Assembly: GCA_025923035.1 (NCBI GenBank)
Contig: JAICGQ010000004.1
Span: 1-38,680, forward strand
DNA: 38,680 nt
DNA from: Pyrinomonadaceae bacterium
Lineage (GTDB): Bacteria > Acidobacteriota > Blastocatellia > Pyrinomonadales > Pyrinomonadaceae
Direction of reading: 5' to 3'
The notes beneath the pieces are model-generated. The model was not told the DNA's origin, searched no databases, and worked only from the letters and a program-made list of their open reading frames with translations. Each line of letters opens with the position of its first letter. Position 1 is the stretch's first letter. Shown in pieces: positions 4,988 to 32,964 of the stretch. The position numbers and the translations under genes were made by a program.

Positions 4988-5920
4988 ATGATGCGCGCAG
5001 CTGAAAGCGTTCTCGATCTCATCGGGCAAACTCCTCTGCTTCATATCTCTCGTTTCGCGCCACCACCACTCGCCGGAGTTTACGCAAAAATTGAATGGCT
5101 GAATCCCGGCGGATCCATTAAGGATCGCGCCGCACTGGGAATGATTCTCGACGCCGAAGACAAAGGATTACTCCGACCCGGCGCAACGATTATCGAACCA
5201 ACTGCCGGCAATACCGGAATCGGCCTCGCCCTCGTGGGAGTCGCACGCGGTTACCGTGTTATCCTCTGCGTCCCGCGTGGTTTCGCTGAAGAGAAGATGA
5301 AGCTGATTCAGGCGTTGGGCGGCGAAATTGAGTACGTGTCAAACGAAGCGGGTATGCAGGGCGCGATCGACCGTTGTCGCGAACTGTCAGATTCGATCAA
5401 AGGCAGCTTCGTGCCGCAGCAGTTTGAGAATGCCGCGAACCCGTGTTTTCATGAACGAAGCACTGGACGCGAAATCATCGATCAGATGAACGGCCGGATC
5501 GACGCTGTCGTGATCGGCGCGGGAACATCCGGAACGTTCGTCGGCGTTTCGCGCGCGGTGCGCAGGATAAATAAGGACGTTTTATGCGTCCTCGTTGAAC
5601 CGGAAGGATCGATTTACGGCGGCAAACCACCGGGTCCGAAGAAAGTCGAAGGCATCGGGCAGCGGGATTTTATTCCGAAGATCTACGACGCTTCGCTCGC
5701 TGACGAGATCATGATGGTGTCGGACGTGGACGTTTGCGATGCCCTTAAGAAGATCGCCCGGCTCGAAGGACTTCTCGGCGGGTGGTCCACCGGCGCAGCA
5801 GCCGCGGCGTCTTACAAGATCGCCGAGCGACTCGGAACCGGGAAGAACATCGTCACTGTCTTCCCCGACGGCGCGGAACGTTATCGCAGCCAGGGTATTT
5901 TCGATGAACTTTGCACTTAG
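4988..5920 (+). CDS. PLP-dependent cysteine synthase / cystathionine beta-synthase-like protein
   Basis: LIGQTPLLHI, NPGGSIKDRAALGMI, EPTAGNTGIGLALVG, IGAGTSGTFVG, LGGWSTGAAA. Confidence 0.9.
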   Translation: MMRAAESVLDLIGQTPLLHISRFAPPPLAGVYAKIEWLNPGGSIKDRAALGMILDAEDKGLLRPGATIIEPTAGNTGIGLALVGVARGYRVILCVPRGFAEEKMKLIQALGGEIEYVSNEAGMQGAIDRCRELSDSIKGSFVPQQFENAANPCFHERSTGREIIDQMNGRIDAVVIGAGTSGTFVGVSRAVRRINKDVLCVLVEPEGSIYGGKPPGPKKVEGIGQRDFIPKIYDASLADEIMMVSDVDVCDALKKIARLEGLLGGWSTGAAAAASYKIAERLGTGKNIVTVFPDGAERYRSQGIFDELCT

Positions 5921-5993
5921 TGCTTTGTACTTTGTTCGCTGACGCAACAGCTACACAAAAAGCAAACAAAGAACAAAGCACAAAGAACTAAAG
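5907..5993 (+). repeat. Heptad hairpin element, copy 1 (NNCTTTG units, inverted arms)
   Basis: Left arm AACTTTG CACTTAG TGCTTTG TACTTTG TTCGCTG (5907-5941). Right arm AACAAAG AACAAAG CACAAAG AACTAAAG (5965-5993). Contains the stop codon of the upstream CDS. Confidence 0.8.
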
Positions 5994-6002
5994 ACCAATA
6001 CT

Positions 6003-7142
6003 ATGGGATTCGCAACCACAGCAATTCATACCGGATCCGAACCCGACGAAGCCACCGGCGCAGTCACGGTTCCGATCTATCAGACGTCAACCTACGCCCA
6101 GGACGCACTCGGAAAACATAAAGGCTACGAGTACGCGCGCACACAAAACCCGACGCGCTCGGCGCTCGAACGCAACGTCGCCGCACTCGAAGGCGCACGC
6201 TTCGGGTTCGCCTTCGCCTCCGGCATGGCCGCGATCGACGCCACGTTGCGGCTCGTGAAAGCCGGTGAACACGTTGTCGTCTCCGACAATACTTACGGCG
6301 GCACCGCGCGTCTCTTCAATCGCATCCTGACGAACTACGGCCTCGAGTTCGATTACGTCGACACATCCGATTCACTCAACGTCGAAGCAGCGATCAAACC
6401 CAACACGAAAATGGTGTTCATCGAAACACCGACGAATCCGGTGATGATCGTCACCGATCTGAAAGAAGTGAGCGAGATCGCACACCGTGCCGGGGCACGC
6501 GTCGTTTGCGACAACACGTTCATGTCGCCATATCTGCAGCGTCCACTCGAATTCGGCGTCGATATCGTGGTCCATTCAACCACGAAATATCTGAACGGCC
6601 ACTCGGATGGCGTCGGCGGCATCGTCGTCCTGAACGACGAAGAAGACGCGAACTGGATCGGCTTCGTTCAGAACAGCGCCGGCGCGATTCTTTCGCCGTT
6701 CGATTCGTGGCTCGTGATGCGCGGCACCAAAACGCTGGCATTGCGCATGGAACAGCATGACAAGTCGGGCCGCGCAGTTGCGGCGTTTCTCGAAGAGCAT
6801 CCGAAAGTGCAAAAGGTTTACTATCCCGGTTCGGCGTCGCACCCGCAGCATGCGCTCGCGAGCCGGCAACAACACGGATTCGGCGGGATGGTCGCGTTCG
6901 ACGTGGGTTCGCTAGCCAACGCCCGCACCGTGCTGGAGTCTGTTAAGCTCTGCACGCTTGCGGAAAGTCTGGGCGGCGTGGAGACGCTGATTTCGCATCC
7001 CGCGACGATGACGCACGCCTCGGTCGACGAAGCGAAACGGCATCGGATCGGCATTACCGACGGACTGGTGCGAATCTCAGTCGGGATTGAAGATACAGAC
7101 GATATAATCGCCGACCTCGATCAGGCGCTGGAGAAAATCTAG
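6003..7142 (+). CDS. Cystathionine gamma-synthase / gamma-lyase family PLP enzyme
   Basis: GFATTAIHTGSEPDEATGAVTVPIYQTSTY, YEYARTQNPTR, HSTTKYLNGHSDGVGG (PLP Lys), LGGVETLISHPATMTHA. Confidence 0.94.
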   Translation: MGFATTAIHTGSEPDEATGAVTVPIYQTSTYAQDALGKHKGYEYARTQNPTRSALERNVAALEGARFGFAFASGMAAIDATLRLVKAGEHVVVSDNTYGGTARLFNRILTNYGLEFDYVDTSDSLNVEAAIKPNTKMVFIETPTNPVMIVTDLKEVSEIAHRAGARVVCDNTFMSPYLQRPLEFGVDIVVHSTTKYLNGHSDGVGGIVVLNDEEDANWIGFVQNSAGAILSPFDSWLVMRGTKTLALRMEQHDKSGRAVAAFLEEHPKVQKVYYPGSASHPQHALASRQQHGFGGMVAFDVGSLANARTVLESVKLCTLAESLGGVETLISHPATMTHASVDEAKRHRIGITDGLVRISVGIEDTDDIIADLDQALEKI

Positions 7143-7213
7143 CGAGTCTTTGGTGTTTTGTGCCCGATCTTCGCGCGTTTAGATTAGAAGGAGGCGCGAA
7201 CAGAGTACAAAGC
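7143..7213 (+). repeat. Heptad hairpin element, decayed copy 2
   Basis: Reverse complement of 7196-7213 is GCTTTGTACTCTGTTCGC, one mismatch from GCTTTGTACTTTGTTCGC of copy 1. Inner stem TTCGCGC (7170-7176)/GCGCGAA (7194-7200). Left arm GTCTTTG-GTGTTTT degenerate. Confidence 0.6.
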
Positions 7214-12398: not shown

Positions 12399-12442
12399 TT
12401 GCCAATTGCAAATCGGCAATCGGCAATTGGCGATTGGCAATG
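12399..12442 (+). repeat. Heptad element of a second type (NGGCAAT units)
   Basis: ATTGCCA ATTGCAA at CGGCAAT CGGCAAT TGGCGAT TGGCAAT; 7-bp period with self-complementary arms, in the VWA/ccsA divergent intergenic region. Confidence 0.75.
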
Positions 12443-12469: not shown

Positions 12470-13294
12470 ATGAGGTCCTTACTGCTCGCAGTTCTGGCGG
12501 CATATCTGATAGCCGCAATCCACTCCATTCTGGCGTTCGTCAACAAAAGACGCTCGCTCCAGCGGGTCGCGGAGTGGTCGATGGCTGTCGGGTTCGTGCT
12601 GCACACCGCCGTGCTGATCGACGACTGGGCAGTCGACGGACACTATCCGCTATTCGGATTGCGAGAGACGTTGTCGTTTCTGTCGTGGGCGCTGGTCGGC
12701 AGTTACGCCCTCGTGCTCTATCACTATCGGGCGCAGGCAGTCGGCGCACTGGCGATGCCGGTGATTTGCATCCTGACCTCTGCCGCGCTGCTGATCAGTC
12801 CCGACCCGAGCGCCTCCGCCGCTGCCTTTTCGACGACGTGGCTGTTTCCGATCCACACGACGCTGCTGGTCTTCGCTTACGCGGCATTCTTCATAGTTTT
12901 CATGGCCAGCGTGATGTACCTGATCCAGGAACGCGAACTCAAAGTTAAAACGTTCAGCGGCTTCTTTCATCGCCTGCCGGCGCTGCGCACGATGAACGAG
13001 ATCTCGACCCACGCTGCGGCAGTCGGACTGACACTGCTCACGCTCGGACTCGTCGCCGGAGTTTTCTGGAGCTGGTCGTTGCACGGGAAAATGTGGCGTA
13101 ACGATCCGAAAGAGATTTTCGCAGTCCTTACGTGGCTGCTTTACTTCGTCCTCGCGATGTTTCGTTCGACAGCAAACTGGCGCGGACGTCGAGCGGCGTG
13201 GCTTGGCGTACTCGGCTTTGTCCTCGTGCTGTGCACGTTTTTGATCGCTCCGCTGTTGGGGAGTTACCACGTGTTTGGTCTCGCATTGAAGTAA
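12470..13294 (+). CDS. ccsA: Cytochrome c assembly (CcsA/HemX-like) integral membrane protein
   Basis: Multi-TM, GHYPLFGLRETLSFLSWALVGSYAL, GVFWSWSLHGKMWRNDPKEIFAVLTWLLYF; adjacent to hemA. ATG 12470 preferred over the track start inside the repeat. Confidence 0.85.
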   Translation: MRSLLLAVLAAYLIAAIHSILAFVNKRRSLQRVAEWSMAVGFVLHTAVLIDDWAVDGHYPLFGLRETLSFLSWALVGSYALVLYHYRAQAVGALAMPVICILTSAALLISPDPSASAAAFSTTWLFPIHTTLLVFAYAAFFIVFMASVMYLIQERELKVKTFSGFFHRLPALRTMNEISTHAAAVGLTLLTLGLVAGVFWSWSLHGKMWRNDPKEIFAVLTWLLYFVLAMFRSTANWRGRRAAWLGVLGFVLVLCTFLIAPLLGSYHVFGLALK

Positions 13295-31146: not shown

Positions 31147-31257
31147 GGTTCTTTGTTCTTTGTTCTTTGTGCTTTGTTCGCCTACCTCACGTACTCACTT
31201 ATGACAATGCAGTTCCGTGGCGAGCAAACAAAGAACAAAGCGCTAAGTACTAAGCTC
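31147..31257 (-). repeat. Heptad hairpin element, copy 3 (recJ / lptC-lptA gap)
   Basis: Plus strand: TTCTTTG x3, TGCTTTG, TTCGCC (31149-31182); opposing arm GGCGAGCAAACAAAG AACAAAG CGCTAAG TACTAAG (31219-31254). Contains the recJ stop codon. Confidence 0.8.
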
Positions 31258-32964
31258 GACTGTCCTACAGTCCACAACGTTCAACTGCATCCGGTATTCA
31301 TTGTTGAAGGCGCTCAGCTCGATCGTGTAAGCGAGTTCGATGCTGCCGTTCAGGTTGGGAGTTTGCCTTCCCGGCTCCGTGCAGTTGAACCAAATAGCTT
31401 CCAGCGGGCGGTTTTGTGGACCCGCCAGCCTCAACCTCAGATGTCGCTCCTTCAATAACACCGGCTCCGACAAACAACGGAGATTCCTCGTCGCAAACAC
31501 CGGCGTCGGATTACCCGCGCCGAAAGGTTCCAATGCCTGAAGCTCTCGCGCCATCGCGAATGTGACACTTTCTGCCGGTAACTCCAGATCGATTACCACG
31601 GAGTGCTCCAGATCATCCGGCGTCAAACAAGACGCAGCGTGCTCGTTCAGTCGCCGTCGAAACTCCGCAATCCGCTCGGGACGAATCGTGATACCCGCCG
31701 CATGCGAGTGCCCGCCAAACTTTTCAAACAGATCCGAACACGCGGTCAGACCGTTCAGCAGGTGATAAGCCTCGATACTGCGTCCCGAACCATGGGCCAC
31801 GTCGCCATCGACCGACAACACGACGCACGGACGATTCAATCGCTCCGCGATCTTCGACGCCGCAATGCCGATCACCCCGCGATGCCAACCGTCGCCCGCA
31901 ACAACCGTGACGAACGAATCGTTCGCGGCGCCTTCCTCGAGCTCCGCAACCGCGAGATCAATGATCTGCTGCTGCACAGTCTTGCGTTCCTCGTTTCGCG
32001 CGTCGAGGTGTTCGGCAAGACGCCGGGCCTCCGCGGAATCGCGCGTATCAAACAGCTCGACTACAGCGCTGGCTGCGTCCATGCGGCCGGCCGCGTTTAT
32101 GCGCGGTCCGAGCCGAAAACCAAGATCGTATGCTGTCATGCCCGTGCCGTCTCCGCAACCAGCCACGTCGATCAACGCGCGCAAACCAGGATTCGCAGCT
32201 TTCGCGAGATCTTTCAGGCCGAGGGCGACGATGGTTCGGTTCTCGCCGGTCAGTTTTGCGACGTCCGCGACGGTGCCAATCGCGACAACCTTCATAAACG
32301 CCGCAACTTGCGCTTCACGGCCACGTTCGCGAAAGAGTGCGTGGACGAGTTTGAACGCGACGCCGACGCCGGCGAGGTTCTTGTCGGGATATTCGCAGCC
32401 TTTCTGGTTCGGATTCAGGACGGCGAACGCGGGAGGGGCGCCGTCGGTTTCGTCGGGCAGATGGTGATCCGTGATGATCACGTCGAGGCCGTTGTCGCGC
32501 GCCCAGTGAAGTGGCGCGTGAGCGCGGATGCCGCAGTCGACGCTTACCACCAGCTTGTACCCGTCGGCGACAGCTTTCTCGAGCGCGGCTTGTTGAATGC
32601 CGTAGCCTTCGGTGAAACGGTGTGGAACGTGAAAGCCGACGCGCGCGCCGAGAAGTTTCAGCGCTCGCAGGAGAATCGCGGTTCCGGTCGTGCCGTCGAC
32701 GTCGTAGTCGCCGTAGATCAGGATCGGTTCGCCGGTGTTAAGTGCATGCTGAAGTCGCTCGACCGCCTCTTTCATGCCGAGCATCAAGTAGGGTTCGTGA
32801 AGTTGATCGTAACCTGGGGTGAGAAAGGTGCGCGCAGAAGACGCGTCGCCGTATCCGCGATTGATTAGCAGTGCAGCCAGGATTGGTGAGACACCCAGTA
32901 CGCGTGCGAGCGAGGCGGCGTCGTCAGCATTATGCCCTCGCACGATCCAGCGTTTGGCTTTCAT
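31243..32964 (-). CDS. recJ: Single-stranded-DNA-specific exonuclease
   Basis: ILIYGDYDVDGTTGTAILLRAL, VSVDCGIRAHAPL, VIITDHHLPDE, NLAGVGVAFKL, GPRINAAGRMDAASAVVEL, GSGRSIEAYHLL, GGHSHAAGITI. Confidence 0.97.
   Translation of the reverse strand: MKAKRWIVRGHNADDAASLARVLGVSPILAALLINRGYGDASSARTFLTPGYDQLHEPYLMLGMKEAVERLQHALNTGEPILIYGDYDVDGTTGTAILLRALKLLGARVGFHVPHRFTEGYGIQQAALEKAVADGYKLVVSVDCGIRAHAPLHWARDNGLDVIITDHHLPDETDGAPPAFAVLNPNQKGCEYPDKNLAGVGVAFKLVHALFRERGREAQVAAFMKVVAIGTVADVAKLTGENRTIVALGLKDLAKAANPGLRALIDVAGCGDGTGMTAYDLGFRLGPRINAAGRMDAASAVVELFDTRDSAEARRLAEHLDARNEERKTVQQQIIDLAVAELEEGAANDSFVTVVAGDGWHRGVIGIAASKIAERLNRPCVVLSVDGDVAHGSGRSIEAYHLLNGLTACSDLFEKFGGHSHAAGITIRPERIAEFRRRLNEHAASCLTPDDLEHSVVIDLELPAESVTFAMARELQALEPFGAGNPTPVFATRNLRCLSEPVLLKERHLRLRLAGPQNRPLEAIWFNCTEPGRQTPNLNGSIELAYTIELSAFNNEYRMQLNVVDCRTVELST

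Follow-up and report, generated by a model that had tools for sequence, protein, structure and literature searches.

The window analysed here, a stretch of 38,680 nucleotides, belongs to one draft Pyrinomonadaceae MAG (Acidobacteriota; 88% complete), referred to below as the host genome (G000). In this window, inverted arrays of seven-base units form a hairpin of the type (NNCTTTG)n, loop, (CAAAGNN)n at 5907-5993, between a cysK-like and a CGS-like gene. The relevant features are as follows.

4988-5920, + strand: cysteine synthase / CBS-like (cysK-like) gene
5907-5934, + strand: left arm, four heptads AACTTTG CACTTAG TGCTTTG TACTTTG, the first two coding
5918-5920, + strand: TAG stop of the cysK-like gene, the end of heptad CACTTAG
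5935-5966, + strand: loop of 32 nt, beginning with TTCGC, an inner-end motif common to many family-A copies
5967-5993, + strand: right arm, three exact CAAAG units followed, after a register slip, by the 8-nt AACTAAAG
6003-7142, + strand: cystathionine gamma-synthase / gamma-lyase-like (CGS-like) gene, ATG at 6003
7148-7212, no strand assigned: decayed family-A copy just past the TAG of the CGS-like gene, with a match at 7201-7212
31149-31256, no strand assigned: a further full family-A copy, with a loop of 52 nt between its arms at 31149-31176 and at 31229-31256

The CTTTG/CTTAG units at 5907-5934 are spaced 7 nt apart and face CAAAG units at 5967-5985, and the hairpin overlaps the cysK-like stop. 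A first-pass annotation of this DNA had read these runs as heptads of a strict 7-bp period. The CTTTG/CTTAG and CAAAG units stand, whereas TTCGCTG (5935-5941), counted there as a further unit, is the TTCGC inner end and no heptad copy, and the period is not strict because the last right-arm unit, AACTAAAG, has 8 nt. The annotation was right that the TAG of the upstream gene is the end of CACTTAG, with the next ATG at 6003, and that the element encodes the last residues of the upstream protein: the final L-C-T of the cysK-like protein is element-derived, and the versions in relatives stop at FDE, FD or near. Two further copies in the window had escaped it, the full one at 31149-31256 and the decayed one at about 7148-7212; the former fills a same-strand gap and encodes the last residues and the TAG stop of the gene at 31243-32964 (- strand). 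In total the window holds 12 CTTTGNNCTTTG-like matches versus 2.1 expected. A divergent gap also holds a short family-B heptad array (AATTGCC..GGCAATTGG) at 12410-12438, which lies 31 nt before the gene at 12470.

The window hairpin is one of about 100 family-A copies in the host genome. The pattern (CTTTGNN)2CTTTG, with at most two mismatches, has 326+294 matches genome-wide versus 10+26 for the control, so that the genome scan proposed in the first-pass annotation does reveal dispersed copies. The CTTTG arm came first in every one of the 67 family-A hairpins that we read (loci L181-L218 having been picked for perfect triplets), and in unbiased stretches 17 pairs were CTTTG-first versus none reversed. 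Within 838 kb, intergenic clusters of period 7 numbered 37, compared with at most 4 at any other period except the multiple 14. Two more heptad families, ATTGCCR and CAGTGGT, share the same build, and 24 sampled hairpin pairs fell into 3 families versus 8.9 clusters expected at random; a genome thus carries few families. At no fewer than 5 of 21 family-C loci (at least 5), the family-C hairpin is nested in a family-A loop. Loops span 2 to 90 nt and, by reading, their interiors have no visible common sequence beyond the TTCGC..GCGAA ends; a conserved loop acting as a functional RNA was rejected on these grounds. On reading, the outer ends are often TAG/CTA, and no fixed GTAG, one of the two foot tags (GTAG or CGTC) of REPINs, was seen. 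One family-A copy (L196:2476-2615) shows a clear 14-bp period, (AGCTTTGTACTTTG)n, which is confined to one of its arms.

Since genes were called with our own codon-usage caller, distances of a few nucleotides carry some error; the median distance from element to stop codon was 3 nt, and that to the start codon was 18 nt, or 13 nt in same-strand gaps. Fourteen of 20 TAG stops end exactly on a heptad boundary, where 1 in 7 would be expected, and the supply of stop codons by the element, first noticed at the cysK-like gene, is therefore recurrent, the copy at 31149-31256 being another case. Copy numbers per gap type roughly track intergenic space, with divergent gaps also occupied and convergent gaps, which hold 2 of 63 copies, showing no excess. 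The bias towards positions inside operons, which the first-pass annotation had proposed to check, is weak once intergenic bases are counted, and operon-specific placement is unclear after this correction. Targeting need not be invoked for the stop-adjacent seating, because purifying selection alone would leave copies beside stops in tight operons.

Comparison of orthologous sites revealed turnover. In three relatives (G003, G005, and G015) whose CGS proteins are 92-93% identical, the gap between cysK and CGS is empty, 4-7 nt long, while in other genera the same place, directly past the stop, holds hairpins of different heptad families. Five further orthologous sites behave alike, with gaps of 2, 8, or 15 nt or with other repeats; at one of the five, G015 alone shares the family-A hairpin, without the nested C hairpin. 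The search for empty sites suggested by the first-pass annotation has thus yielded site polymorphism, with same-genus gaps of 2-15 nt or other heptad families, and the mobility it had inferred is likely. No transposition event and no target duplication was seen. In the same orthologous gaps of relatives we also observed a non-heptad hairpin family (CACAGACT..AGTCTGTG; L115, L261).

The 23S-rRNA intervening-sequence protein family, TIGR02436/PF05635, is referred to here as IVP. On contig C16 of the host genome, a family-A element with CTTTG arms (L155:12201-12658) has a 400-nt loop that encodes a four-helix-bundle TIGR02436 protein (E 4e-26). In a set of 56 IVP genes from Pyrinomonadaceae and relatives in the class, chosen as the best-scoring ones rather than at random, 40 lie between inverted heptad arrays, compared with 0/444 and 6/343 control genes (6/787 in total; Fisher 7e-49), and inverted arrays of other periods flank only 0-4 of the 56. 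The flanking arms have a median length of 4.9 heptads and mirror one another unit by unit (z 5.1), whereas those of gene-less family-A copies do not (z 0.2). Several of the remaining 16 IVP genes (L360, L393, L394, and L395) have, by reading, inverted arms of 9-nt period (AGTCTAGGA, GAGTTGCAG), and arm unit length may therefore depend on the IVP subfamily. Outside this group, of eight IVP genes carried by cyanobacterial plasmids (Nostoc, Calothrix, Aulosira, and Pseudanabaena), seven have inverted heptad arms, versus 2 of 9 other genes at these loci. On two of the plasmids (L399, Pseudanabaena galeata; L398, Nostoc edaphicum) an IVP gene flanked by very long heptad arms lies between cas6 and cas4, and another IVP gene is antisense between two ribonucleotide reductase genes.

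The heptad sequence tracks the IVP protein. Between genera, heptad sharing climbs with IVP identity: it is 0.016 where identity is below 40% and 0.27 where it exceeds 70% (Mantel 0.255, null sd 0.052). For nearest IVP neighbours across genera it is 0.234, versus 0.036 when permuted (maximum 0.144). Of the gene-less hairpins in the host genome, 58% agree with the arms of the IVP elements found there, compared with 0-4% for the arms of four other genomes; the IVP arms of G018, which are also CTTTG, match 58% as well. The data show a class of elements in which heptad arms enclose an IVP gene, alongside hairpins that carry such arms but lack the gene. Other counts speak against a tie between the hairpins and IVP: the host genome has only 3 IVP genes (at 88% completeness) versus about 100 family-A hairpins, G008 has many CTTTG arrays with no PF05635 match, G027 has 13 IVP genes with no heptad hairpins in 120 kb, and over 10 genomes the relation of heptad density to IVP count is only suggestive (rho 0.61, p 0.06). 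No IVP gene with family-C arms was seen.

The window copy has the inverted heptad arms and no IVP gene between them, and is at most a gene-less derivative because its loop is only 32 nt. We consider it likely to be a copy, lacking the gene, of a selfish element of IVP type whose arms are heptads. The full form covers about 430-600 bp, in which an array of about 4-5 heptads is followed by the gene for the four-helix-bundle IVP and then by that array in inverted orientation; the window copy retains the arms and a short loop only, L155:12201-12658 representing the full CTTTG-armed version. The sole PDB match is 2GSC, a Xanthomonas protein that has been described as homopentameric (PMC4990558). 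The IVP protein may recognise its own heptads, possibly one per pentamer subunit, and multiply or maintain full and gene-less copies in trans. Such reading of heptads would account for the conservation of single units but not of arm pairing, and also for the multiplication of gene-less copies. Joint inheritance of IVP and arms would likewise yield the tracking signal, without binding. Copies would survive where they do least harm, in stop-to-start gaps, at times replacing the stop codon: where the ancestral stop is lost, CTTAG or CTTTGA of the element provides a new one. Avd, an accessory protein of phage DGR, is a homologue of this Xanthomonas protein (PMC10053308), from which a copying route linked to RNA or reverse transcription is thinkable. 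The effect on the cysK-CGS operon is probably neutral or mild, e.g. an extra mRNA processing site.

Alternatively, heptad hairpins may arise independently and IVP genes may be passengers that favour existing hairpin loops, in which case the window copy was never an IVP element. Such entry has precedent in rRNA, where IVSs replace hairpin loops (PMC4990558), as in tetraloops, and family-C hairpins likewise sit in family-A loops; the great excess of gene-less hairpins over IVP genes also fits. However, heptad family tracks IVP identity across genera, which is unexpected for entry into unrelated hairpins, and arms are mirrored around IVP genes but not in the gene-less copies of the host genome. 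We therefore regard this explanation as rather unlikely.

The first-pass annotation favoured a functional intercistronic RNA hairpin affecting mRNA stability, termination, or translational coupling. The predicted fold at 5907-5993 is indeed strong (-32.8 kcal/mol, z -4.5), the hairpin sits between stop and start, and RNase III is known to cut IVS stems in rRNA (PMC4990558); nevertheless, the arms bear no sign of selection for pairing. The variable positions of family-A arms match no better than shuffled partners (0.464 versus 0.493; 0.532 versus 0.553), the arms are not mirrored in unit register, and in transcribed orientation G-U pairs show no excess over A-C (52 versus 54). Arms in G034 are mirrored (z 6.2), yet this looks DNA-level because G-U is again not in excess (18 versus 26). 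Orthologous sites do not conserve the element, and divergent gaps are occupied too; the scarcity of copies in convergent gaps and the lack of a terminator-like site (GC-rich stem plus U run) speak against a terminator. No curated Rfam family gave a match. An RNA function of this kind is improbable.

A second idea in that annotation, expansion by slippage, fares no better. In a variant of it, heptad palindromes would be built in place by local slippage and fold-back copying, with no element or protein involved. Among repeats with units of 5-11 nt, those of 7 nt are the most frequent in many genomes (PMC4679880, citing Mrazek 2007; PMC6344855), the mirrored arms of G034 fit fold-back, and the greater likeness of every second heptad (lag-2, z 4.4) fits some 14-bp duplication. 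On the other hand, neighbouring heptads resemble each other less than shuffled ones do (z -3.3), only 3 families come from 24 loci, orthologous sites lack the whole element, and the IVP gene association would go unaccounted for, so that we hold this origin to be highly improbable. Taken together, the covariation, G-U, and adjacency tests indicate that family A is shaped neither by RNA pairing nor by simple 7-bp slippage. Finally, REPIN-like repeats moved by RAYT, although REP/BIME/REPIN are likewise small, palindromic, dispersed extragenic repeats, often 3' of genes (PMC3733652, PMC3116915), and several families per genome occur here too, are hardly credible, since REP elements are not built on period 7 and require a Y1 transposase, of which the 88%-complete host genome has none (Y1_Tnp, 0) and G015 none either, both with CTTTG hairpins, while other relatives have up to 16.

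Several known systems resemble these elements in part. The 428-nt IVS of Coxiella 23S rRNA carries an S23p/IVP ORF, and such IVSs are stem-loops of similar size with complementary border arms and the same protein family, have been called selfish, and replace hairpin loops (PMC4990558); in contrast, the elements here are intergenic, the window hairpin lying between two protein genes rather than in rRNA, their arms are tandem heptads, and most copies in the host genome are gene-less. Cyanobacterial STRRs and other heptamer repeats (PMC4679880, PMC6344855) share tandem 7-nt units in intergenic DNA and several families per genome, but the present host is no filamentous cyanobacterium, and here the arms are paired and inverted with IVP genes between them, also on cyanobacterial plasmids. 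The first-pass annotation could name no class for the hairpin, although paired inverted heptanucleotide arrays had been described in Geobacter metallireducens as hepta/octanucleotide sites of class 1-3 (PMC2700814); the link to IVP genes had not been anticipated. These sites, too, consist of tandem heptads, paired on opposite strands with variable spacing and in some cases located within operons (proB-proA) (PMC2700814), but have other heptads and were read as IHF/HU or global-regulator sites with no link to IVP.

Each of the three, the IVSs of 23S rRNA, the STRRs, and the Geobacter sites, is thus already known; we found no paper joining them in the literature searched, which is weak evidence, as few subscription papers and bioRxiv preprints were covered. 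More broadly, and only tentatively, the widespread heptanucleotide repeats in the intergenic DNA of bacteria, cyanobacterial STRRs among them, might be the arms of one class of IVP-run mobile elements, in which a pentameric IVP ring would bind about five heptads, one per subunit, the heptad of a lineage would be set by its IVP, and gene-less hairpins would be non-autonomous copies. Joining heptad repeats with IVP genes gives both a testable role within a small selfish element that has non-autonomous copies and a protein that tracks sequence. This would account for the strong differences in orthologous operon gaps among close relatives and for repeats that sometimes provide stop codons and C-terminal residues, and it suggests the kind of element that lies behind the unexplained seven-base repeats of soil bacteria and cyanobacteria.
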